A stretch of DNA of 41,699 bases from Candidatus Binatia bacterium (lineage in GTDB: Bacteria > Desulfobacterota > Binatia > UBA9968 > JAJDTQ01). Below are positions 1,322 to 15,522 of the stretch, in pieces (positions within the stretch are counted from its first letter, which is position 1; each line of letters starts with the position of its first letter). The translations under genes were made by a program, and so were the position numbers. Location: positions 1 to 41,699 of the forward strand of contig JAJDXX010000048.1 in NCBI GenBank assembly GCA_022823055.1. Reading direction: 5' to 3'. The notes below the pieces were generated by a model. The model worked only from the letters and a program-made list of their open reading frames with translations. It was not told where the DNA came from and ran no database searches.

Positions 1322-2464
1322 TCAGCCCTGTTCTTCGGTAACAAGCTCGTAACTGGTGCTGCGGCCGCCGGCCTGGCTCCGCACCAGGATGCCACGATCC
1401 ATCAGATCGCGGATGTCCCGATTGGCCGTGTCCTGCGAGCAACGGTTCATCGTGGCCCACTTCGACGAGGTGAGCTTCCCTTCGAAACCGTCCAGGAGCC
1501 GGGTCAGGATCTTGACTTGGCGCTGGTTCAGCGTCCTGGAGGAGTGCGCTTGCCAGAAGCGGGTCTTGGTCAGGACGGTAGCCAGGGTATTCCGAGCGTT
1601 TTCGATGGTGTGCGCGAGACATTCGAGAAACCAGGTCTGCCAATCGGTGATATCCAGGCCACCCTGTTGAGTTCGTTCGAGCATGTCGTAGTAGGCCCTG
1701 CGCTCCAGGCGGATCTGAGCGGACATGCTGTAGAAGCGCTCGGGGCTCTCCTCCGACCGGGCCAACGCCATGTCCGCGATTGTCCGCGCGATACGGCCGT
1801 TGCCGTCCTCGAAGGGATGAATGGTGACGAACCAGAGATGGGCGACGCCGGCGGCGAGCACGGGCTCCATCGACTGCGTGTCTTCGAACCATTCCAGGAA
1901 CCGGGAGATCTCGGCCCCAAGGCGCTCCGCTGGAGGAGCGGTATAGTGGACGCGTTGGCGCCCGATCGGGCCTGATACGACTTCCATTGGCCCGTCCGCG
2001 TCATCGCGCCATTGGCCGACGCGAATCCGGCGCATGCCGCTACGGCCGGTCGGGAAAAGGGCGGCGTGCCACGAAAACAGCCGTTCTTCCGTCAGGGGCG
2101 CGGTGTAGTTCCGCGTGGCGTCGAGGACCATCTCGACGGCACCGTCCACGTTTCGATCCGCCGCCGGCAGGCCGCCGATATCAAGACCGAGGCGGTTTGC
2201 AACCGACGAACGCACTTGGTCGGGAGCGAGGAACTCCCCCTCGATCTCGCTTGTCTTCACGACATCCTCGGTGAGTGTCCGCAAGATGGCCTCGCTGCGC
2301 ATCTCGAAACCAAGGGCCGCCATGCGGCCGAGCAACTTTCCCTGGATGTGGCGTGTATGCGCGAGATGCTTGGCGAGCCGGGCCGTATCCTGCTGGAACT
2401 GCGGCCATTCCGGGCGTTGCCAAATGTATGCAGGATATTCTCCAGAATATTCTCCGTACAACAT
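1322..2464 (-). CDS. Fic family protein (predicted AMP transferase) with C-terminal winged helix
   Basis: A 380-residue Fic protein, predicted to transfer AMP from ATP to a protein hydroxyl. The N-terminus has the YIWQ...WP.F signature of the DUF4172-type domain. An inhibitory-helix motif TSEIEG lies at about 71-76, so this is the self-inhibited class with the (S/T)xxxE(G/N) motif before the Fic core. The catalytic loop HPFEDGNGR is intact at about 216-224. The last 70 residues form a winged helix (SSKWATMNRCSQDTANRDI). The frame is open upstream to 2581, but the ATG at 2464 matches the family start and sits 6 bases after a good -10 box, suggesting leaderless translation. It is divergent from the AbiEi-like gene across a repeat-rich gap. 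Confidence 0.9.
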   Translation of the reverse strand: MLYGEYSGEYPAYIWQRPEWPQFQQDTARLAKHLAHTRHIQGKLLGRMAALGFEMRSEAILRTLTEDVVKTSEIEGEFLAPDQVRSSVANRLGLDIGGLPAADRNVDGAVEMVLDATRNYTAPLTEERLFSWHAALFPTGRSGMRRIRVGQWRDDADGPMEVVSGPIGRQRVHYTAPPAERLGAEISRFLEWFEDTQSMEPVLAAGVAHLWFVTIHPFEDGNGRIARTIADMALARSEESPERFYSMSAQIRLERRAYYDMLERTQQGGLDITDWQTWFLECLAHTIENARNTLATVLTKTRFWQAHSSRTLNQRQVKILTRLLDGFEGKLTSSKWATMNRCSQDTANRDIRDLMDRGILVRSQAGGRSTSYELVTEEQG

Positions 2465-2546
2465 GCGGTGAATATAACATCCATTCTCCGCATGAGCAAG
2501 TTTATCTCCGCTTAGTCTGCGGAGATAAAGAGTCCATTCTCCGCAT
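2435..2546. promoter_or_regulatory. Cluster of TTCTCCGC half-sites and palindromes between fic1 and the AbiEi-like gene
   Basis: Several copies of one motif lie here. ATATTCTCC occurs at 2435-2443 and 2447-2455. The 13-mer CCATTCTCCGCAT occurs at 2481-2493 and 2534-2546. Between those two lies a perfect 11-bp inverted repeat, TTTATCTCCGC (2501-2511) and its complement (2519-2529), with a 7-base spacer. A second inverted repeat, ATATTCTCCG / CGGTGAATAT (2447-2475, one mismatch), overlaps the fic1 start codon. One 13-mer occupies the spacer of the predicted fic1 promoter. The arrangement suggests a multi-site operator; the bound protein could be the AbiEi-like winged helix or the winged helix of Fic itself. 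Confidence 0.7.
2471..2499 (-). promoter_or_regulatory. Predicted fic1 promoter, leaderless
   Basis: On the minus strand TTGCTC (2499-2494) and TATATT (2476-2471) are separated by 17 bases. The ATG of fic1 follows the -10 box by six bases (CACCGC), so transcription would start at or next to the start codon. No Shine-Dalgarno sequence is present. Confidence 0.6.
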
Positions 2547-2632
2547 CCGTCCCGCATCTGTGCCGGGTTGTTGGCGGCCATGCTCTGATGGCCTCCTGAG
2601 GACAGCTTCTGTGGTCGATTGGGACTGGATCA

Positions 2633-2667: not shown

Positions 2668-3264
2668 ATGGCCAGCCTATCCAACCGAATAGTAGAGCAC
2701 GCTAGCTCACTCCCCGAGGGCACTCCCATCTGTGCCGGCGCGCTGCTTCATCTCGGGAGCCGCGCAGCGGTCGATCAGGCGCTCTCGCGCCTCGCGCGCT
2801 CCGGGAGGCTGATGCGGATCTGCCGAGGGATCTACATGAAACCCGTCGAAACCCGGTTCGGGCGTTGTGCGCCCAGCATCGGCAAGGCGATTCAGGCACT
2901 GGCGACCTTGTGGGGCGAGACAATCGCCCCCTCCGGCGGTGCCGCAGCGCATGCTCTGGGCCTCACGACCCAGGTCCCCATACGGTCGGTCTATCTCACA
3001 TCCGGTCCTGATCGCCGCTTGCGGTTCGGCAACCTGGAAGTCGAGTTGCGCCATGCACCGCGCTGGCAACTCACGGCTCCGCACCGTAAGGCAGGCGATG
3101 TCATCCGTGCCCTGGCCTGGATCGGCCCGGACGAGATCCAAGACGTGCTACAAGCTGTTCTGCCAAGCCTTTCTCGCGAAGATATCGACGAGCTTGCCGC
3201 GGCGCGGGCTATCATGCCGCATTGGATGGCGGAGCCGGTGAGCGCCCTTGTTCCGCGTGGCTGA
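2668..3264 (+). CDS. DUF6088/AbiEi-like antitoxin-type transcriptional regulator, orphan
   Basis: A 198-residue protein resembling DUF6088, related to the AbiEi antitoxins of type IV toxin-antitoxin systems. The N-terminal 60 residues form a winged helix (AVDQALSRLARSGRLMRICRGIYMKP). The remainder has features typical of the family: a GGAAAHALGL segment, a VYLTSGPDRRLRFGN segment, and a C-terminal helical part. In classic AbiE loci an AbiEii nucleotidyltransferase toxin follows immediately. Here the next gene is a convergent permease 18 bases away, and no nucleotidyltransferase is visible in the window. The divergent neighbour is a Fic protein, so the regulator may control fic instead; that pairing is inference. 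Confidence 0.7.
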   Translation: MASLSNRIVEHASSLPEGTPICAGALLHLGSRAAVDQALSRLARSGRLMRICRGIYMKPVETRFGRCAPSIGKAIQALATLWGETIAPSGGAAAHALGLTTQVPIRSVYLTSGPDRRLRFGNLEVELRHAPRWQLTAPHRKAGDVIRALAWIGPDEIQDVLQAVLPSLSREDIDELAAARAIMPHWMAEPVSALVPRG

Positions 3265-4769: not shown

Positions 4770-5996
4770 TCACTCAGGGTTTTCAGGAAACAAACCGGGC
4801 ATCCAACGAGAGGCATGCCTTGCCGGGAAGGCCAACCGAAGAGGTGCACGCGAACTTTCCGATACCAAGATCTCGCCCTCCATCAGTGCGGCGGTCACTC
4901 GGCGTGCCTGTCGTTCTCCGGTTCCCAGGAGTGCAGCGACATCGCCACGCGGCAGTTCCCCCCTGAATAGAACCGCTTCCAGTACGGCGCCAGACCTTGG
5001 CGGCAAGGCGCCGACGCGCACTTCTTCTTCGACCCAGATCAGGATCCGGGTCCGCAGCCGGTCGGGGACCATCAAGCGCTCCATGAATTTCACCTGATCG
5101 ATGCACACGCCTAGAAAGAACCGAGTGAATTCCGCCATCGCCTCTTCGCTCAAATCGCCCCGCCCATCGAGGTCGTTGCGGCGAGTCGCGTCGCAAGCAG
5201 CGAGCAACATCTTGTAGTTATCGACGTTGCGCGCGAGACCCCGGGCGATGGACCAGACGCCGCCGGTAGTCAGGGCGTCCCGCAGCATGGCGTAGGACAT
5301 CAGGCGAGCCACACGCCCGTTGCCGTCCAGGAACGGGTGAATCCACAGCAAACGGTGATGGGCGGCAGCGGAAGCCAGGATCGTATCGGCCGTGCCAAGA
5401 TTGCTGTAGACGGCTTCGAAACGGTCCAGGAAACGTGGTACCGCGCCCGGACTCACCGGGATGTGTCGTCCAACCCGCACATGTCGTTCGCGAAGCGCGC
5501 CGGCGTCGACTCGAAGGCGCTCTCCTGTGTCCGGTTCTTCGACCCACAGCAGCTCTTCGGGGAGCCGTTCACAGAATCGGCGGTGTATTTCCATCAGACC
5601 GTCGGCGGTAGCCGCGCGGCCCTCTATTCCGCCACCGTCGATCCATTCCTGGACCGCCATGTGAGCCTCGGCCTCAAGTTGGAGACTGCGCTTTTCCGGT
5701 TCGGTGCTGTAGTCGCCCTTTAGCGCGCGCTCGATATCGACAGGGTGAGTGTCGTGTCCCTCGATCAGGTTGCTATAGTAGCAGTTCATCGCGCGGACCA
5801 TCGTCCCAAGCGCGGATTGTACACCTGGTGGCAGGCTGCGAGTGAAGCCTGCGGATCGCGCCGCCAGTTCAACGGCGAAGTCGGTTAACCCGGTGCGATG
5901 CCTTGAGCCCTCCGCGATTAGCAGAGGTTCCATCAGGGCTATGGTTTCCCCTCGGTCCCCTGCTTTGCGTGAGGCCGCCGATATGACCGTTTTCAT
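4770..5996 (-). CDS. Second Fic family protein
   Basis: A 408-residue Fic protein of a different subfamily from the one at 1322-2464, lacking the YIWQ-type start. The inhibitory-helix motif SNLIEG lies at about 75-80. The catalytic loop HPFLDGNGRVARL (about 220-232) is intact, so AMP-transferase activity is plausible. The C-terminal 70 residues look like a winged helix (LPRGDVAALLGTGERQARRVTAALMEGEIL). The ATG at 5996 is chosen because GGAAAGGGAC precedes it; ATGs at 6008 and 6074 lie upstream in frame without ribosome sites. Upstream DNA is AT-rich. A copy of the fic1 repeat element lies 150 bases upstream. The end of the gene adjoins the arsR promoter. Confidence 0.88.
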   Translation of the reverse strand: MKTVISAASRKAGDRGETIALMEPLLIAEGSRHRTGLTDFAVELAARSAGFTRSLPPGVQSALGTMVRAMNCYYSNLIEGHDTHPVDIERALKGDYSTEPEKRSLQLEAEAHMAVQEWIDGGGIEGRAATADGLMEIHRRFCERLPEELLWVEEPDTGERLRVDAGALRERHVRVGRHIPVSPGAVPRFLDRFEAVYSNLGTADTILASAAAHHRLLWIHPFLDGNGRVARLMSYAMLRDALTTGGVWSIARGLARNVDNYKMLLAACDATRRNDLDGRGDLSEEAMAEFTRFFLGVCIDQVKFMERLMVPDRLRTRILIWVEEEVRVGALPPRSGAVLEAVLFRGELPRGDVAALLGTGERQARRVTAALMEGEILVSESSRAPLRLAFPARHASRWMPGLFPENPE

Positions 5997-6147
5997 GTCC
6001 CTTTCCATATCATCTATAACGTAACAATAACAAAAAGTTATATTGCTAACCAGTGAGTATCGGACCTGTATCATGACCGTTTGTTGAGCCGATTGGATTT
6101 CCTTCCCAGCTCAGGGCACGCCGATCTGGGCGGGCGCAAAGTGAATG

Positions 6148-6178
6148 CTGCGGAGATAATCAGCTTCTTTCTCCGCAG
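6148..6178. promoter_or_regulatory. CTGCGGAGA/TCTCCGCAG inverted repeat, shared with the fic1 region
   Basis: A perfect 9-bp inverted repeat (6148-6156, 6170-6178) with a 13-base spacer. Read on the plus strand it is CTGCGGAGATAA, nine bases, TTCTCCGCA. The same bipartite element, with an 8-base spacer, lies at 2517-2545 upstream of fic1 in the same orientation relative to the downstream fic gene. There is no T-run on either side, so it is unlikely to be only a terminator for the dehydrogenase gene ending at 6211. Confidence 0.55.
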
Positions 6179-6210
6179 CCGTTCGACAGCGCCTTCAACG
6201 AATGTGCCGG

Positions 6211-7248
6211 CTAGGAGTCAGGCACGAGCACCGGCTTGAGAGCCTCCCCGTCCCGGATGAGCTGAAATCCGCGGGTTGCTTCGGACAGCGGCAGTACGTG
6301 GCTGCGGACCGGGGCCAGATCGACGGCGCCTGCCGCCAGCAGCTCGGTGGCCCGCTGCCAGGTCTGCCAGATCAGCCGTCCGTGGATGTTGTGCATCACC
6401 GGGCATTTGAGCAGCCAGTAGGTGAAGTCCACGGGGATGGCCGACGGCGGTGCGCCCACCAGCCGGAAGTCGCCGCCCTTGGCGAGAGCGGCGAAGACGG
6501 CGTTGAAACCGGCCTCGGTGCCCGAGAGCTCCACGCCCACATCGGCACCGGTGCCGCCGGTCATGTCGCCCACCACGCTCGCCAGCCCCTCCTTGCCGGC
6601 GTCCACCGCCTGGTCGGCGCCCATGGTTTCGGCCGCCCGGAGCCGAAGCGGGTTGATGTCGCAGGCGATGACCCTGGCGGCGCCCAGGGCGCGCGCCGCC
6701 GCCACCGCCATGAGTCCGATGGGGCCGCAACCGTTCACCAGCACGGACAGCCCCGAAACGCCCGTGCCCGCGAGACAGGCGTGGACGGCGATGCCGAAGG
6801 GCTCGAGCATGGCCGCGGCCTCGTGCGGAACGCCGGGCGGGTTCACCCATGCGATGGAAGCGGGCACCGTCAGGTACTCGGCGAAGGCGCCGTCGATATC
6901 GATGCCGGGGTAGCGGGTGTTCTCGCAAAGATGGGCACGCCCGAGCCGGCAGGAGCGGCAACTCCCACAGAATATGTGGCTTTCGAGGCTGACCCGGTCG
7001 CCGGCCGCGAGCCCCTCGACCCCAAGCCCGGCGGTCTCGACCGTGCCCGAGACCTCATGCCCCAGGACCCGCGGCAGGACCATCCGGCGCGCCATGCGCG
7101 GCGCCCAGTTGTAGATCTGCATGTCGGTGCCGCAGATCCCCGCGGCGCCGACCCGGATCAGTATCTCGCCGGGACCGGGATCGCGCGGCTCCATCTCGCG
7201 AACCGCGATGCCTCCCACCTCGGGAGCGATCTTCTGAAGGCTCAGCAA
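6211..7248 (-). CDS. Zinc-dependent dehydrogenase, threonine 3-dehydrogenase-like
   Basis: A 345-residue medium-chain dehydrogenase/reductase, close in length and pattern to L-threonine 3-dehydrogenase. Catalytic zinc ligands are Cys39 (ICGTD), His64 and Glu65 (GHE). Structural zinc ligands are Cys94, 97, 100 and 108. The IYNW segment after the first cysteine is typical of TDH. The NAD(P)-binding turn is GCGPIG. Translation starts at TTG 7248 (MLSLQKI), which aligns with the TDH N-terminus; no later in-frame ATG fits. It is the third gene after the Rieske dioxygenase subunits, separated by 18 bases, so it probably oxidises a diol or alcohol in that pathway rather than threonine. That role is inference. 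Confidence 0.82.
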   Translation of the reverse strand: MLSLQKIAPEVGGIAVREMEPRDPGPGEILIRVGAAGICGTDMQIYNWAPRMARRMVLPRVLGHEVSGTVETAGLGVEGLAAGDRVSLESHIFCGSCRSCRLGRAHLCENTRYPGIDIDGAFAEYLTVPASIAWVNPPGVPHEAAAMLEPFGIAVHACLAGTGVSGLSVLVNGCGPIGLMAVAAARALGAARVIACDINPLRLRAAETMGADQAVDAGKEGLASVVGDMTGGTGADVGVELSGTEAGFNAVFAALAKGGDFRLVGAPPSAIPVDFTYWLLKCPVMHNIHGRLIWQTWQRATELLAAGAVDLAPVRSHVLPLSEATRGFQLIRDGEALKPVLVPDS

Positions 7249-7266
7249 GGGGCTCTCTACAGGTCT

Positions 7267-7773
7267 TTACAGGTGGTAGATGTCCACCGGCCCTTCGAGC
7301 CGGTCGTCGATGAAGGTGATCTTCTTGCGCGCGATCTTGAGCGCGCCGTCGATCCGCTTGAACGCGAAGTCGTAGCGGCTGCCGCGGGTCTGAGCCCCTT
7401 TCTTGCCGTAGACGTGCACGATGCAGTTGGCGGTGGCCTCGACCGCGTCTCCTTCCGCGCGCTCCACCAGCACGTTGCCGATGACGTGCACCGTGCGGTC
7501 GAGGGGAAGCGAGGCCCAGGACTGGCGCGACTCGATGCGGAACACGCGGTCTTCGAGCCGGCCGCGGTCCTTGAGATAGAGCAGGTTGAGTTGTGTCTCG
7601 GGGTCGGTGGTGGTCTCTTCCTCGCTGGCCCAGGCCGGAGCCCAGTACACGGCATCCTCGGCATAGAGGTCGAGCCACTCGTTCCAGCGGCGCCGGTCCA
7701 GCAGCATGGCCTCGCGGTTGATGAGCGCGGTCACCTCGCGCTCCAGGCCGGCGTCGATGCCGTTGGCGCTCAT
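7267..7773 (-). CDS. Aromatic-ring-hydroxylating dioxygenase, small (beta) subunit
   Basis: A 168-residue protein of the ring-hydroxylating dioxygenase beta-subunit family (SnoaL-like fold). Family features are the N-terminal INREAMLLDRRRWNEWLDLY segment and the AEDAVYWAPAW motif, followed by the conserved beta-sheet region around TVHVIGNVLVE. It has no catalytic residues; it builds the alpha3-beta3 hexamer with the Rieske subunit. Its ATG overlaps the alpha-subunit stop by four bases, which fits stoichiometric coupled translation. The length is normal for BenB/XylY-type subunits. Confidence 0.9.
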   Translation of the reverse strand: MSANGIDAGLEREVTALINREAMLLDRRRWNEWLDLYAEDAVYWAPAWASEEETTTDPETQLNLLYLKDRGRLEDRVFRIESRQSWASLPLDRTVHVIGNVLVERAEGDAVEATANCIVHVYGKKGAQTRGSRYDFAFKRIDGALKIARKKITFIDDRLEGPVDIYHL

Positions 7774-9176
7774 CTAGTGTCCTGTCCGGTCAAGGTGTCC
7801 TGTCCGGTCAATTCGCGCTCCGCTCCGTTCTCCAGCCGATTCAGCCAGGCGCGGTAGAAGCCGTGAAACATTCCCTCGTGCTCCCAGTCCGGGCAGGACG
7901 CCACCGCCTTGAAGCCCAGTTCACGGGCGTCCTGGTCGGGGCCGGGGACCATGACGTCCATGCCGCGGGTCATGTCGTTCCACTGGCTCGGCGGTCCCAG
8001 AGCGCCATCCTGGATGGCTTCCAGCGCGGCGGCGTCGTCCGACGTCGCCATCCCGGCCGTCAGGTAGAAATCCTCGAACTTCCTGAGCCGCGCGGCCCGC
8101 GCCGTGCGGCTCTCTCCTTTCGGTGCGATGCAGTAGACCGTGACCTCGGTCAATCGGGTCGAGACCGGCTTCACCAACCGGATCTGCGTCGACGGGTTGT
8201 CCATCAGCATCACGTTGGGAAACAGGTAGAGGTTTCGGCCGCGGTTGAGTATCCAGTCCACCTCCGCCGGCTTGAGGTTCTTTTCGAGCCACGCCCGCGC
8301 CTCGTAGATCGGGCGGACATGCGGCGTGGTGTGCAGCGCCCAAAGCCCCATGTGCCCGTTGCCCAGGTCGTAGGTGCCGCTGGGCACCTTGCCCTTGATG
8401 CGCCCGAACTCGGTCCGGCGCATGCCGGCCGTGGCGTCACGGGCGTCGCGCTGGGCCACGGTGGAGGCGAACACGCTGTGGAGGGTGGTCACGTGGTAGC
8501 CGTCGACGCTGTTCTCGGCCTGCAGCTTCCAGTTGCCGTGGACTACGTAGGTGGAGCACCCGGGCACCACCTCCAGCCCGTCCCGTCCCTGATCGGCCAA
8601 CAGGTCGATCCAGCGTGCCGCCGCCCCCAGATGGTCCCGGAGCGCGGGCACGTCGCTTCTCAGGCTCCCGAACACGAACCCCTTGTAGGAGTCGAGGGCG
8701 CCGATCCGCTGGAGGTTGAAGCGCTCGCGCGCGCCTTCGGTCACCGGGTAGCCCGCCTCCTCGTTCTTGATCTTGATGCAGCGGCCGCCGCGGTCGTACA
8801 CCCAGCCGTGGAAACGGCAAGTCAGAACATTGGCGTTTCCCCGCTTAAGCGGCGTCAGCACCGCGCCCCGATGGGAGCAGACGTTGATGAAGCAGCCAAG
8901 CGACCCGTCCGTCTGGCGCATCACATAGACCGGCTGCCGGCCGATTTCGGTCGACCAGTAGTCGCCCGGCCTCTCCACCTGGCTTTCGTGGCAGAGAAAG
9001 ACCCAGCCGCCCTCGAAGATGCGCTCGATTTCCGCCTCGAAGACCGCCTCGTCGGTATAGACTGCCCGGTCGACGCGGTAGACTCCCTCGTCGACCCGGT
9101 CATCCACCAAGTGGCGGAACCCGCCGTTTCCCGTCCCACGGTTCATCCCATCGCTTGTCCGTTCATACCGCATCAT
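7770..9176 (-). CDS. Rieske aromatic-ring-hydroxylating dioxygenase, large (alpha) subunit (BenA/AntA-like)
   Basis: A 468-residue oxygenase alpha subunit resembling benzoate/toluate/anthranilate 1,2-dioxygenases. The Rieske [2Fe-2S] ligands are Cys100, His102, Cys120 and His123. The mononuclear iron site has His228 and His233 in ENSVDGYHVTTLH, where the Asp carries electrons between subunits; a later Asp in the TSDDAAALEAIQDG region is the third ligand. FEGGWVFLCHESQ and YKGFVFGS also match the family. Starts at 9176, 9173 or 9146 are all possible; 9176 follows AAGGCA. The frame stays open upstream to 9707, but that part overlaps the next gene and is a shadow. No reductase or ferredoxin gene is nearby, so electrons must come from a partner encoded elsewhere. 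Confidence 0.9.
   Translation of the reverse strand: MMRYERTSDGMNRGTGNGGFRHLVDDRVDEGVYRVDRAVYTDEAVFEAEIERIFEGGWVFLCHESQVERPGDYWSTEIGRQPVYVMRQTDGSLGCFINVCSHRGAVLTPLKRGNANVLTCRFHGWVYDRGGRCIKIKNEEAGYPVTEGARERFNLQRIGALDSYKGFVFGSLRSDVPALRDHLGAAARWIDLLADQGRDGLEVVPGCSTYVVHGNWKLQAENSVDGYHVTTLHSVFASTVAQRDARDATAGMRRTEFGRIKGKVPSGTYDLGNGHMGLWALHTTPHVRPIYEARAWLEKNLKPAEVDWILNRGRNLYLFPNVMLMDNPSTQIRLVKPVSTRLTEVTVYCIAPKGESRTARAARLRKFEDFYLTAGMATSDDAAALEAIQDGALGPPSQWNDMTRGMDVMVPGPDQDARELGFKAVASCPDWEHEGMFHGFYRAWLNRLENGAERELTGQDTLTGQDTR
7777..7811. repeat. Tandem 18-bp duplication at the 3' end of the alpha-subunit gene
   Basis: GTGTCCTGTCCGGTCAA occurs at 7777-7793 and again at 7795-7811. The copies encode LTGQDT twice at the extreme C-terminus of the Rieske subunit, immediately before its stop codon and the overlapping beta-subunit start. 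Being in frame, the duplication only adds six residues. Confidence 0.85.
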
Positions 9177-9366: not shown

Positions 9367-10707
9367 ATGACGGAACGCGTTTCCATTCTCGCGATCGGTG
9401 ACGTGCACCTGGGCGCAGCCTGTTCGGGAGTGCCCGAGGGGATGGCGGACCGCGGCGTCGACCCGCGTGAGTTGACGCCCGAGGCCGCCCTTGCCCGCTG
9501 CGTGGACCTGGCGGTGGCGGAGCGTGTCGACGCCGTGCTCTTCGCCGGCGACGTCGTGGAGAGCACCAACGCCAGATTCGAGGCCATGGTGCCGCTCGAG
9601 GAAAGCGTTCGCCGGCTGGTCGATGGTGGGATCGAGGTCATCGCGGTTGCCGGCAACCACGACGTCGAGGCCTTGCCGCGCCTTGCGGCCTTGATCGACG
9701 GTTTCACCTTGCTGGGCGCCGGCGGCCGGTGGGAGGCGCGGACGATACCGAAGGACCAATCCCCCGTTGTTCAGGTGGTGGGCTGGTCCTTCGGTGAAGA
9801 GCGCGTGCGCCACAGCCCGGCGGCGGAACTTCTGAAACAGCCGCCGGCGCCGCCCTCGCCGCCGGTTCCCAGGATCGGTCTGCTGCACGCGGACCTGGAC
9901 GCGTCCGGCGGATACTACGCACCCGTCCGGCAGGCGGAGCTGGACGATACCGGCTACGGCGCCTGGCTTCTGGGGCACATCCACAAGCCCTCGATCGAGG
10001 GGCTGTCCGCGACCGGGACCCGCCCGTGCGGTTACCTCGGTTCGCTCGTGGGCCTCGACTTCTCGGAGACGGGTCCTCATGGCCCGTGGCTCGTCGAGGT
10101 GTCCCGCGAGGGCGACATCGCATGCAGACAGATTCCCCTGGCGCCCCTGCGATGGGAGCGCGTGACGGTGCGGGTGGACGGGCTCGAGCATGTCGACGAC
10201 GTGCACGACCGTTTGATGAGCGAGGCCGAGAGCCTCGTGCGCCGGCTCGGGGAAGTGGGCTTCCTCCCCCGGGCCATCGGTTTGCGTGTGCACCTCACCG
10301 GGACGGCCGGCTGTTACGACGGACTGCGGCGCTGGATCGAGGGCGAAGCGTGGCGCTCCATGGGCCGGGTGGTCGACGGCACCGGCGTGTTTTTCTGCGA
10401 AGTCGTCGACGCCATGGCCCCGCCTTTGGACCTGGAGGCCATTGCCTCGGGAGACGATCCCGCCGCGCTGGTGGCGCAACGGCTCCTGATGCTCGAGCGC
10501 GGCGATGACCGGTCGAGGATACTCCTCGCCGAGGCTCGCGCGGAGTTGAACGGAACCGCTGGCGAGCTTCTCTGGCAGCCCGTTCAGGAACACCGCCATG
10601 CCGCGGACCCCCTGTCGGACGGTGCCCTGCGCGACGTGCTCCTGCGGGCGGGAAGGGCGGTTCTCAGCGCCATGATCGCCGGCCGCGAGCAAGGCGATTC
10701 GACGTGA
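9367..10707 (+). CDS. SbcD/Mre11/YhaO-like DNA exonuclease (metallophosphoesterase)
   Basis: A 446-residue calcineurin-fold phosphoesterase. The two-metal site is complete: Asp12 and His14 (IGDVHLG), Asp in GDVVES (61-66), Asn-His-Asp in GNHD (96-99), a His in GLLHADLD (about 180), and GHIH at 203-206. The C-terminal 180 residues are like the capping domain of YhaO/SbcD proteins. By family it is an Mn-dependent DNA nuclease that works with a coiled-coil ATPase, and its stop overlaps the GTG start of such an ATPase. The ATG at 9367 is preceded by only weak purines. Length and partner favour the YhaO branch over canonical SbcD. Confidence 0.88.
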   Translation: MTERVSILAIGDVHLGAACSGVPEGMADRGVDPRELTPEAALARCVDLAVAERVDAVLFAGDVVESTNARFEAMVPLEESVRRLVDGGIEVIAVAGNHDVEALPRLAALIDGFTLLGAGGRWEARTIPKDQSPVVQVVGWSFGEERVRHSPAAELLKQPPAPPSPPVPRIGLLHADLDASGGYYAPVRQAELDDTGYGAWLLGHIHKPSIEGLSATGTRPCGYLGSLVGLDFSETGPHGPWLVEVSREGDIACRQIPLAPLRWERVTVRVDGLEHVDDVHDRLMSEAESLVRRLGEVGFLPRAIGLRVHLTGTAGCYDGLRRWIEGEAWRSMGRVVDGTGVFFCEVVDAMAPPLDLEAIASGDDPAALVAQRLLMLERGDDRSRILLAEARAELNGTAGELLWQPVQEHRHAADPLSDGALRDVLLRAGRAVLSAMIAGREQGDST

Positions 10708-13700
10708 AGCTGAAGCGGCTGGCCATCAATCGGCTCCGGGGCATCAGCCAGCCCTTCGAGATCGAAGCGGCCGGGGCGGGCTTCCACGTCGTATTCGGAC
10801 CCAACGGGATCGGCAAGTCGAGCATCTGTCGCGCCGTGGAAGGGTTGTACTGGGAAGACCGCCATCCTTCGCCGCTCACGTCGGTAACCGGGGAGTTCGA
10901 ATGGGACGGTGAATCGTGGTGGGGACACCGCGACGGAACGCGCGTCACCTGGCAACGCAACGGCACGGGCAGTGTTTCTCCGAGTCTTCCCTCGTCGCAC
11001 CATGAGCGTTGCTTCTTCCTGCGCCTGCGGGACCTGATCGAACCGTCCCGGGACGGCGCCGCCGACATCGCGTTGGAGATACGGCGCCAGATGTCCGGCG
11101 GATTCGACCTGGACGAGATTTCCTCCGGCCTCTTCCCCGCCGCGAACCGCGGCCGGCGCCAACGCGACAGCTTCAACAGGGCCTCGGAAGAGGTGGAGAA
11201 GGCCTTGGTACGGCAGGCCGACCTCCAGCGGCGCGCGGATCAGCTCGGAAGGTTGAAGACCCTCCTCGCGGAATCGGAAGCCGCCGCCCGCCGGCGCGCT
11301 TTCGTGGAACGCGCCGTCGGGCTCACGCGCCGCCGGAAGGAACTGGCCCGTGTCATGGAGCAGATCGCGGCTCTGCCCGCGCCGCTGGCCAGGCTCACCG
11401 GCAAGGAGGCCGACGAGGTCCGGCGGTACCAGGACCAGGCGGACACGTTCACCGAGCGGGTGCGTTCCCTGGAACAGGGCTTGCATCGGGCGCGCGAGAC
11501 CCGGCGGGAGACCGCGCTCGACGGTCCCATCGAACGGGCCGAGCTTGCGGTGTTGCGCCGGAAGGCGGAGGAGCTGCGCCGTGTCGAACAGGATCTCGAT
11601 GCGGCGCGCGGCGAACGCGGGGCCACCCGGAGAGAGCTTGTTTCGGCCTTGTCGGCCATCGGCGGCGCGGACGTCGACAAGGCATCGTTCACGCTGTCCG
11701 AACACCGGGAGCTGTTCGACTTCCTGCGTTCCAGCCAGGCTCACGGCACCCGCGCGGGCGCCATTCGGGAACGGCTGCGTCTCATCGAGCGTATCGATGT
11801 ACCGGAAGGCGCCGAGCAACGACTCGCGACGTACCGGGAGGCAATGGAGGCCCTGCATTCGTGGCTGCGCGTGCCCGAGCCGGATGGTTTTGTCCGCCGG
11901 GTTCGCAACCGTTGGCCCTGGTTCCTGCTTGCTCTCACGCTGGTGCTGGCCGGCGTCGGACTGGCCGCCCTGGCCGATCCGGGCGCCGACTTCACCGGCT
12001 CTGTCGTCGGCGATCTCGCCCGGCGCCTGCCCTCCGGGTCCGTTTCCCTTCCCGCGCTGCTTCTGGGGCTCGGCGGCGGAGTGGCAGTGTCCGTGCTCTT
12101 GATGGGCGATCAGCCGCGTTCCAAGGCCGCCAGAAAGGCCGCGCGGGAGGCATTCGAAAGATCGACCGTCGACGGCCCCGACAAGTGGGAGCTTTCGTCG
12201 GTGGCGGCGCTCGCGCGTCAACTGGAGCGCCAGACCGCGGCGGCCGAGTCCTGGTTGCAGCGGGCGCGTGACCGCGACGTGGAACGCCAGGCCCTCGAAA
12301 CCGAGCTGGAGGGTTTGTCCGGACAGGAGGCCGCCCTCGCGGCCCGCCGGGAAGAACTGCAGGTCGGACTGGGCATGGATGCGTTTCCACACGACGCGGA
12401 ACTCGTGGACTTTGCCCGCGCCCTGGACCAGCTCCGCCAGGCCCGCGCCAGGGACGAAGCCGCGGCGGGCAAGGTGGGAGGCCTTGAACAACAGCACGCG
12501 GGCCTCCTGGCGGAACTGGCCGCGGTCCTGGAGCAGCAAGGGGAGCCGGCGCCCGGAGACGCCGCCACGGCCGAAGCGCGTATCCACGACCTCGCGGACC
12601 GCAACACGTGGTTGGAGAACGCGATCTCCGAGGAACGCAACGTGGCCGTTCAACTCGACGAGAATGCCGCCAACCTGGAAGCAGCCCTCGCCGTCATCCG
12701 GCGAATCTACTCCGAGGCCTCCTTGAACGAAGGTGATTTCGACGGCCTCCTGACGCTTCTCGGCTCGCTGCAGCGTTATCACGACTTGGTGGGGGAGAGG
12801 ACTCGCCTTGAGGGCCAGATCGGCCTCGACCGCGCGGAGCTCGACAAGGCCGGGGAATCCGCCTTGGCCGAATGCGACGAGCCGACCCTTGATGAGATCA
12901 AGGAGGAACTATCGGACCAGGAGTCCGGCGCGAGCGAGTTGAGGACCGAAATCGCCGAGATCACCGCCGAGATGAACGCGGCCAGGCGCGGCAACGGGAT
13001 GCGCGAACTTCTCGCCGCCCGTGAAGCCGCCCGCGCCGGGTTGCGGGACCTCCGCGACCGGGCGCTGTACGCGAAGGCGGGGAGATTCTTCATCCACGCG
13101 GTCGAAGCGGAGTATGAGCACAACCGGTTGCCGCGCGTCTTCGAACGCGCCCGCAACCACTTCTCCGAATTCACTCACTACAATTTCCAACTGGAGCTGG
13201 ATAAGGGCGGCGAGACTCCCCGGCTGTTCGCGCGCGAATCGCGCAGCGGGGAAGTGCGGGAACTGGATGAGCTGTCGGACGGCACGCGCGCCCAATTGCT
13301 GTTGGCGGCGCGCATCGCGTACGCCGAGGAGGTGGAGCAGGGAAAGGTCCTGCCGCTGTTTCTCGATGAGGCGCTGGACCAGAGCGACCCCCAGCGGTTC
13401 GAGGCCATCGTGCGCGGTCTCGGGCGCGTGGCCAGGGAACAGGACCGTCAGATCTTCTATCTCACCAGCGACCCTCTGGACGTCGACCGCATCCGGGACG
13501 CCCTTGGCAAGGAGGATTGTTGCATTGCCTCGGCCATCGACCTGGGCCGGATACGAACGAAGACCGCGAGCGTGAGCGGAGCGGATGCGCTCCGCGTCGA
13601 TCCGGGACCGGCGGTTCCGGCGCCCGATCAGCTTTCCCTCGAGGAGTACGGCGCGGCGCTCGCCGTGCCGGAGTTCCGTCCGGAACGCGGCTGCACGGGT

Positions 13701-14264
13701 CAACATTTCTACTATGTGCTGTGGGACGACTTGAACCTGCTGCACGATTTCTTGTCGAACGGCATCGAGCGGGCGGGACAGTGGCAGACGGTTCACGGCA
13801 CGCCCCTCGCCGAGAGTCTGGGGTCCCGTTCCATCACTCCCGCGGAGATCACCTCGCGGCTGGAGCTGCTCGAGGTCTTTTGCGAGTTGTGGACGCAGGG
13901 AAGGAACCGGCCCGTCGACCGTGACGCGCTGGAAGAGAGCGGCGTCCTGACCGACCGCTACCTGGAGGACGTGGTGGACATCGCGCGGGAGCTGGACGGC
14001 GATCCCGTGAGGCTCCTCGCCGCCCTCGACGAAACCCGGGACCCGCGGTTGCGCGGTTTCCGCCAGACGAGCGTCGAACGGCTGCGGCGTTACCTGGCCG
14101 ACACCGGCTACCTCGACGAACGCCCCGTCCTCACCGGGTCCGAACTGGTGCTGCGCGCCCGCACCACCCCCGTCGCCGCCCGACTGCCGGACCGCGTCGC
14201 CAACGACTGCCTCAAGCGCTGGTGGGGATGGGCGCGGAACTCGTCCGAATCCGGATCACGATGA
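10704..14264 (+). CDS. YhaN/SbcC-like coiled-coil ATPase with membrane segments and a C-terminal extension
   Basis: A 1186-residue SMC/Rad50-like ATPase. Walker A is GPNGIGKSS (32-40). A signature-like segment, LSDGTRAQLLLAARIA, lies near 857, and Walker B LPLFLDEALDQSD near 882-894. Between them are long charged coiled coils interrupted by two hydrophobic segments at about 404-424 and 448-468, as in Bacillus YhaN, which suggests membrane anchoring. After the ATPase core, from about 945, a 240-residue extension does not resemble SbcC or YhaN; its end looks alpha-helical and winged-helix-like (LRRYLADTGYLDERPVLTGSEL). The GTG start overlaps the nuclease stop by four bases. Together they should form a nuclease-ATPase complex for DNA end processing or repair, possibly defence. 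Confidence 0.85.
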   Translation: MKLKRLAINRLRGISQPFEIEAAGAGFHVVFGPNGIGKSSICRAVEGLYWEDRHPSPLTSVTGEFEWDGESWWGHRDGTRVTWQRNGTGSVSPSLPSSHHERCFFLRLRDLIEPSRDGAADIALEIRRQMSGGFDLDEISSGLFPAANRGRRQRDSFNRASEEVEKALVRQADLQRRADQLGRLKTLLAESEAAARRRAFVERAVGLTRRRKELARVMEQIAALPAPLARLTGKEADEVRRYQDQADTFTERVRSLEQGLHRARETRRETALDGPIERAELAVLRRKAEELRRVEQDLDAARGERGATRRELVSALSAIGGADVDKASFTLSEHRELFDFLRSSQAHGTRAGAIRERLRLIERIDVPEGAEQRLATYREAMEALHSWLRVPEPDGFVRRVRNRWPWFLLALTLVLAGVGLAALADPGADFTGSVVGDLARRLPSGSVSLPALLLGLGGGVAVSVLLMGDQPRSKAARKAAREAFERSTVDGPDKWELSSVAALARQLERQTAAAESWLQRARDRDVERQALETELEGLSGQEAALAARREELQVGLGMDAFPHDAELVDFARALDQLRQARARDEAAAGKVGGLEQQHAGLLAELAAVLEQQGEPAPGDAATAEARIHDLADRNTWLENAISEERNVAVQLDENAANLEAALAVIRRIYSEASLNEGDFDGLLTLLGSLQRYHDLVGERTRLEGQIGLDRAELDKAGESALAECDEPTLDEIKEELSDQESGASELRTEIAEITAEMNAARRGNGMRELLAAREAARAGLRDLRDRALYAKAGRFFIHAVEAEYEHNRLPRVFERARNHFSEFTHYNFQLELDKGGETPRLFARESRSGEVRELDELSDGTRAQLLLAARIAYAEEVEQGKVLPLFLDEALDQSDPQRFEAIVRGLGRVAREQDRQIFYLTSDPLDVDRIRDALGKEDCCIASAIDLGRIRTKTASVSGADALRVDPGPAVPAPDQLSLEEYGAALAVPEFRPERGCTGQHFYYVLWDDLNLLHDFLSNGIERAGQWQTVHGTPLAESLGSRSITPAEITSRLELLEVFCELWTQGRNRPVDRDALEESGVLTDRYLEDVVDIARELDGDPVRLLAALDETRDPRLRGFRQTSVERLRRYLADTGYLDERPVLTGSELVLRARTTPVAARLPDRVANDCLKRWWGWARNSSESGSR

Positions 14265-14349: not shown

Positions 14350-15522
14350 TCATCCGGCGCCGTATGTTCCCTCGATCGCAGCGAGCGCCTCCTCCACCGC
14401 CACGTCCGCTCCCTCTTCCCGCAGGATCTGCCCAAGCGCCTCGACCAGGGCGACGACGTTCTCTTTCCGGCTCGACTCGCCCATGAGGCCGATGCGCCAG
14501 GTCTTGCCGGCGAGGGCGCCGAGGCCGCCGCCGATCTCGATGTTGAAGTCGAGGAGCAGGCGCTTGCGGATGGCGCCGTCGTTGGCGCCCTCGGGGATCC
14601 TGACGCTGTTGAGCATCCACAGGCGGTGGCCTTCCTGGGAGGCGAGGGGGATGCCGAGGGCCTCCAGGCCGGCGACGAGGGCGCGGTGGTTCAGCTCGTG
14701 GCGCGCGAAGCGGGCTTCCAGGCCTTCGCGCTCGATCTCGCTCAGGGCGGCGTGGAGGCCGTAGTTCATGGAGATGGGGGCGGTGTGGTGATAGACGCGC
14801 TCCTCGCCCCAGTAGCGCTCGATCATGGTGAAGTCGAGGTACCAGCTCTTGACCTTGCTCTTGCGCCGCGCCAGCTTGTCGCGCGCGGCTTGACCGAAGG
14901 ACACCGGCGACAGCCCGGGAGGACAGCTCAGGCATTTCTGCGTGCCGCTGTAGGCGGTGTCGACGTTCCAGGCGTCGAGGGTCACGGGGCATCCCCCAAG
15001 CGAGGTCACGGTGTCCAGCACCAGCAGGGCGCCGGCGTCGTGGGCGAGCCGGGAGATCTCTTCCACCGGCTGCAGCACGCCGGTGGAGGTCTCGGCGTGC
15101 ACCAGGGTGACAATGTCGACCTTGTGCTCCTTCAGGGCCTGCTCCACCTGCTCGGGCCGGATGATCTCGCCCCACGGAGCCTCCACCTTGACGAGGTTCC
15201 CGCCCAGGCGCTCGACGATGTCCGCCATGCGGGTGCCGAACACGCCGTTGACGCACACGAGCACCGTGTCCCCCTCCTCGATGAGGTTCACGAGGCAGGC
15301 CTCCATGCCCGCGCTGCCGGTGCCCGACACCGGAAAGGTCAGTTCGTTCCCGGTGTGGAACAGCCAGCGCAGCATGGCCTTGTTCTCTTCCATGATCTTG
15401 AAGAACTCCGGGTCCAGGTGGCCCACCACCGGGGCCGACAGCGCCTCCAGCACCGTCGGGTGGGGGTTGCTGGGGCCGGGTCCGAGGAGGATTCTCTTGG
15501 GCGGATTGAGTGGTGAGGCCAT
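14350..15522 (-). CDS. Alanine/serine-glyoxylate aminotransferase family protein (class V, PLP)
   Basis: A 390-residue class V aminotransferase. GPGPSNPHPTVLEAL at the N-terminus and SGTGSAGMEA (about 66-75) are typical of serine/alanine-glyoxylate transaminases. The PLP-binding Asp lies in LVLDTVTSLGG, and the Schiff-base lysine is Lys196 in YSGTQKCLS. The C-terminal domain ends with GEIGGG-like and WRIGLMG segments. It probably moves amino groups between serine or alanine and glyoxylate, but phosphonate or hydrogenase-linked relatives cannot be excluded. The start at 15522 follows AGGAG. It faces the YhaN-like gene convergently and is divergent from tilS. Confidence 0.88.
   Translation of the reverse strand: MASPLNPPKRILLGPGPSNPHPTVLEALSAPVVGHLDPEFFKIMEENKAMLRWLFHTGNELTFPVSGTGSAGMEACLVNLIEEGDTVLVCVNGVFGTRMADIVERLGGNLVKVEAPWGEIIRPEQVEQALKEHKVDIVTLVHAETSTGVLQPVEEISRLAHDAGALLVLDTVTSLGGCPVTLDAWNVDTAYSGTQKCLSCPPGLSPVSFGQAARDKLARRKSKVKSWYLDFTMIERYWGEERVYHHTAPISMNYGLHAALSEIEREGLEARFARHELNHRALVAGLEALGIPLASQEGHRLWMLNSVRIPEGANDGAIRKRLLLDFNIEIGGGLGALAGKTWRIGLMGESSRKENVVALVEALGQILREEGADVAVEEALAAIEGTYGAG

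Follow-up and report, generated by a model that had tools for sequence, protein, structure and literature searches.

An overlapping nuclease-ATPase pair with a long C-terminal extension

The window analysed here is the whole stretch of 41,699 nucleotides, which comes from a metagenome-assembled genome of the class Binatia. Its forward strand carries two genes that overlap by 4 bp (10704-10707) and encode a nuclease resembling Mre11, SbcD and YhaO and a large ATPase of the SMC/Rad50/YhaN type (Table 1). A first-pass annotation made from the sequence had described such an overlapping pair with all catalytic motifs kept. The exact coordinates of both genes were confirmed, and the nuclease metal ligands as well as the Walker A, signature and Walker B motifs of the ATPase are intact at the sequence level. 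All of the Mre11 metal ligands are invariant across the aligned sequences, and the nuclease belongs with the SbcD/Mre11 group of calcineurin-type phosphoesterases. Its match to the curated SbcD model (TIGR00619 sbcd; 6.7e-12, 45.7 bits) lies under the cut-off of 77.65. Nuclease and ATPase are adjacent in every complete copy checked.

Table 1. Features of the gene pair and its surroundings in the window.
Feature	Position	Strand	Basis or remark
Fic-domain gene 1	1322-2581	-	PADLOC SoFic, E 7.8e-43
DUF6088/AbiEi-type antitoxin-like gene	2668-3264	+	Pfam
Fic-domain gene 2	4770-6074	-	Pfam
Left flank: Rieske ring-hydroxylating oxygenase alpha subunit, outside the system	7770-9176	-	Pfam; kept at empty sites
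Accessory segment	9189-14368		~92-217 bp in its place in three relatives
Mre11/SbcD/YhaO-like calcineurin-family nuclease, 446 aa	9367-10707	+	Pfam Metallophos 1.3e-11, above cut-off
Nuclease motif I, D12-x-H14	9400-9408	+	invariant, 15 sequences
Nuclease motif II, D62	9550-9552	+	invariant
Nuclease motif III, N97-H98-D99	9655-9663	+	invariant
Nuclease motif IV, H174	9886-9888	+	invariant
Nuclease motif V, H204-x-H206	9976-9984	+	invariant
SMC/Rad50/YhaN-like ATPase, 1186 aa, GTG start, C-terminal extension	10704-14264	+	AAA_27 28.3 bits, cut-off 22
Walker A GPNGIGKS, aa 32-39	10797-10820	+	G32, N34, G37, K38 invariant in alignment A1
Predicted membrane helix 1, aa 406-424	11919-11975	+	hydropathy 2.34; helix in model
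Predicted membrane helix 2, aa 449-467	12048-12104	+	hydropathy 2.14; helix in model
ABC signature LSDGTRAQ, aa 857-864	13272-13295	+	motif scan
Walker B PLFLDEA, aa 884-890	13353-13373	+	D888, E889 invariant
C-terminal extension, aa 945-1186	13536-14261	+	family-conserved; second half helical
Right flank: class-V aminotransferase, outside the system, start approximate	14350-15510	-	Pfam; 9/9 genus genomes

The N-terminal lobe of the ATPase matches a Rad50 sequence in the PDB, and the full-length model shows a long coiled coil, but with a pTM of only 0.28; the alignments behind the structure models were shallow. The central membrane segments noticed at first pass were recovered as two hydrophobic helices, which by hydropathy probably form a membrane hairpin in the middle of the coiled coil. 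Both helices recur in most ATPase homologues of the class. Haloarchaeal homologues keep a hydrophobic stretch at mid-coil, several of them showing one scan peak only, and the CxxC zinc hook is absent from every family member scanned.

Beyond the ATPase core the protein continues for ~240 residues. Following Walker B there are 302 residues in the window ATPase and 68 in a same-phylum YhaN-type ATPase. Counted from the signature, the tail measures 329 residues (318-336 in the family; 355 in Halorussus), against 90-105 in four relatives without the extension. No such tail occurs in the YhaN-type ATPases that were measured, be they from the phylum or from plasmids. Its first-pass description as unmatched sequence past the core was borne out, with no Pfam family matched and no convincing match among PDB sequences; a weak GPCR-kinase profile match (0.028) was treated as chance. 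Structure prediction and remote-homology searches, proposed at the same time, yielded a helical second half and no clear fold or family. The model has a pLDDT of 64 and is confident only at about aa 1046-1180, all helical, the first half being poorly modelled. The best Foldseek hits had E values of 1.4 (PDB) and 1.9 (viral), nothing convincing, and the best VIA match (Z 5.8 over 71 residues) falls in a range common for helical models.

Across the family, the net charge of the extension runs from -2 to -35, and the sole invariant charged residue is E1077. Since the extension is acidic and has only this one invariant charged residue, a role in protein contacts seems preferable to catalysis or DNA binding, and an adaptor seems likelier than an enzyme. 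This evidence is indirect, and acidity is a general trait of haloarchaeal proteins. Of the earlier suggestion of a new effector or sensor domain, the novelty holds for the libraries searched, and as regards function an adaptor is the likelier reading. Comparison with four copies of 61-86% extension identity gave an extension dN/dS of 0.16-0.32, similar to that of the remaining protein. With the closest copy (G003) the value was 0.6-1.2, derived from very few changes.

A family of pairs in Binatia and on haloarchaeal plasmids

The source genome contains three paralogous pairs, and six of the nine genomes of the genus carry between one and three copies each. Two near-complete genus genomes, G001 and G004, have no pair anywhere. 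In one G003 paralogue, stop codons interrupt the ATPase gene (L020 7846-11346) and the nuclease has remained intact. A profile of the extension recovered two further copies, in two other families of the class (148 genomes), both next to a related nuclease gene. Applied to a draw of 297 genomes from the phylum, it found no copy beyond the genus. The extension also occurs on nine haloarchaeal plasmids at ~30% identity (E down to 2e-22); haloarchaeal chromosomes and other phyla lay outside the profile search. By sequence comparison, this conservation out to haloarchaeal plasmids lies far beyond chance, and the extension is not unique to the window ATPase; on the same grounds it defines a family of linked nuclease-ATPase pairs. 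Damage was seen in two of these nine plasmid copies: in Natrinema halophilum the extension occurs in a truncated gene only, and the second Halorussus copy is broken. An apparent stand-alone extension gene in Halorussus was rejected, as it is part of this broken second pair on the same plasmid. The viral contigs scanned contained no relative. Among phage records, none matched the window ATPase, and a haloarchaeal ATPase gave short matches to the ATPase core only.

In a tree of 25 nucleases, those paired with extended ATPases cluster together (100/100) and separately from seven whose ATPases were taken to be unextended; the ATPase tail of three of these seven was unmeasured, its signature having been missed by the motif scan. 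The tree was built without B. subtilis YhaO, and long branches were flagged in it.

In the genus, the pair of the window is an accessory element at a variable, defence-type site. In G004, G006 and G002 the site is empty, with the same two flanking genes, Rieske and aminotransferase, on either side: in G004 the matching positions are L047 4956 for window 9188 and L047 5173 for window 14369, and L048 (G006) and L051 (G002) align similarly. G002 lacks the pair at this site and has it elsewhere in its genome. No clear direct or inverted repeats were found at the insertion borders. At the same site, G007 has the pair followed by an AbiEi gene, G005 has the pair followed by a DUF3037 gene corresponding to the PADLOC candidate defence protein PDC-M66B, and G008 has no pair and instead carries HmaA and HmaC of the Hma system, a TmtA-like gene and AbiEi (L049 4124-18057). 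The fic and abiEi neighbours listed at first pass are indeed present in the window, as two Fic genes and one AbiEi/DUF6088 gene. An open reading frame of 551 aa at 6202-7857 (+) was discarded as a companion gene. It lies antisense to two minus-strand genes and merely shadows them; their sequence suggests an alcohol dehydrogenase and a beta subunit of a dioxygenase.

Elsewhere the paralogues mostly adjoin ammonium-transporter genes. Four such pairs were noted (L013, L014, L018, L021; for two, the assignment is from sequence likeness alone), and this locus may be a second insertion site. The transporter-side paralogues showed no defence link, except for a DNA methylase near one of them. Between the transporter and the paralogous pair in L013 lies a 752-aa gene (5812-8070) with a weak PADLOC match to mad2 (4e-8) and no Pfam match.

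All haloarchaeal pairs found are on plasmids, and some have defence-like neighbours. A TmtA-like gene lies just upstream of the pair in Halosimplex, an Avs4-like gene lies downstream in Natrinema caseinilyticum, and in Halorussus an Argonaute-like (PprPIWI) gene directly follows the extended ATPase (L027 15479-17680). The Natronosalvus plasmid encodes helicases resembling several defence helicases, which is weak evidence since helicases cross-match, and the one neighbour queried in Haladaptatus had no defence match. A primase-polymerase-like gene was found directly upstream of the pair on one haloarchaeal plasmid tested, and an equally sized gene occupies that position on two related plasmids; such a neighbour fits plasmid replication or maintenance. 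An apparent association of homologues with defence islands, put forward as a check on the first-pass proposal, was seen for the genus site and for some plasmid neighbours, and not for most transporter-side paralogues.

Relation to known nuclease-ATPase systems

With YhaO/YhaN, the window pair shares a linked SbcD-like nuclease and AAA_27 ATPase, and a Latilactobacillus YhaN-like ATPase likewise has a hydrophobic segment at mid-coil. The pair differs in its additional C-terminal residues, about 235 past the ATPase core, and in what appears to be a separate nuclease group. Two YhaN-type ATPases of the same phylum have neither extension nor hairpin. As these proteins lack the extension and the locus is not fixed, the notion that the extension might be universal in YhaN of this lineage at a fixed core locus was discarded.

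Mre11-Rad50/SbcCD has in common with the pair the nuclease metal ligands and the ABC motifs at both ends of a long coiled coil. Differences are the probable hairpin in place of a CxxC hook, the extension and the SbcD score below cut-off. Given the missing zinc hook and this score, we regard the pair as a variant and not a member of Mre11-Rad50, despite its motif content. Across the source genome, no curated SbcD match was above the cut-off, so the pairs could serve in repair.

Among defence systems, Lamassu shares with the pair a Rad50/SMC-like ATPase and a defence-type location. The LmuB model matches aa 1-46 of the window ATPase only. Furthermore, the partner in the window is an Mre11-like nuclease, no LmuA- or LmuC-type gene was seen, the flanks being the Rieske and aminotransferase genes, and E889 keeps the Walker B glutamate, at which position LmuB generally has glutamine (PMC10586767). 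Wadjet (JetABCD) also combines an SMC-like ATPase with a nuclease against foreign DNA (PMC10586767), whereas the window system has only two genes, one of them Mre11-like, and no further partner genes were seen alongside. No PADLOC model covers most of the pair's length.

A candidate role in restricting incoming DNA

The best reading of these data, to which we give a probability of roughly 0.5, is that the pair constitutes a two-gene accessory module that is held at the membrane and restricts incoming DNA. The argument is one of guilt by association: because the pair comes and goes where relatives carry known anti-phage systems, it is probably an uncharacterised defence system. SMC/Rad50-like complexes act in defence in Lamassu and Wadjet (PMC10586767), and E. 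coli Mre11-Rad50 attacks the hairpin ends of phage N15 (PMC12624138); by analogy with both, defence at the membrane would be plausible. Among the papers searched, none dealt with YhaN in defence. The first-pass annotation had envisaged a membrane-tethered DNA-sensing or defence system. The location is of the defence type, as seen in the empty sites, the Hma genes of G008 and the plasmid neighbours, while the tether is a prediction from hydropathy.

We propose that the Rad50-like heads would dimerise around DNA in an ATP-dependent manner. With the coiled coils ending in a membrane hairpin in place of a zinc hook, the complex would be placed at the inner membrane, the point of DNA entry. ATP-driven closing could then position the Mre11-like nuclease for cutting, and its targets in phage or plasmid DNA might be ends, hairpins or branched intermediates. 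The extension, which follows directly on the second ATPase lobe, would most likely be an adaptor for protein interaction, through which the nuclease is gated or a partner is recruited.

The main rival to defence is a mobile repair or maintenance role, in which the pair moves between genomes and acts on DNA ends left by breakage or stalling, in the service of the host or of a plasmid, and is not immune machinery. The intact SbcD/Mre11 motifs, the source genome without a curated SbcD match above cut-off, and the plasmid-borne haloarchaeal copies, some of them beside primase-like genes, would all suit such a function. We consider it less likely than defence, given that three relatives lack the pair at the site, that G001 and G004 have none at all, and that other defence systems occupy the same site in relatives. 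Considerably less probable is that the genes are simply a YhaN/YhaO peculiar to the lineage, with an ordinary structural tail and a general role in stress or in the envelope. The AAA_27 score above cut-off and the similarly placed hydrophobic segment in Latilactobacillus are in keeping with this explanation; it is at odds with an extension family that reaches from a bacterial class to haloarchaea and is paired with a distinct group of nucleases, and with the two YhaN-type ATPases of the phylum that have neither extension nor hairpin. We give slightly less credence still to abortive infection, in which the ATPase would sense foreign DNA and the extension or nuclease would kill or arrest the cell, as proposed for Lamassu. 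Here the Rad50-like sensor architecture and the defence-type context offer a resemblance, and the points against are that no effector domain was recognised in Pfam or PDB sequences, that the extension has no invariant polar constellation, and that the Walker B glutamate is kept, unlike in LmuB (PMC10586767).

Taking restriction of incoming DNA as the preferred reading, we put forward a bolder and more tentative claim: that the pairs represent a previously undescribed defence family, shared between the class Binatia and plasmids of haloarchaea. Its Mre11-Rad50-like nuclease, anchored in the membrane and controlled by a new adaptor domain, would destroy DNA arriving at the cell envelope. Since the family is defined by sequence, through its nuclease group and extension profile, it can be searched for elsewhere. 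If the claim is true, it would tie the Mre11-Rad50 repair machine to bacterial and archaeal immunity through a dedicated, mobile and membrane-tethered version, and the control of such nucleases by YhaN-type hairpins and head extensions would become directly testable.
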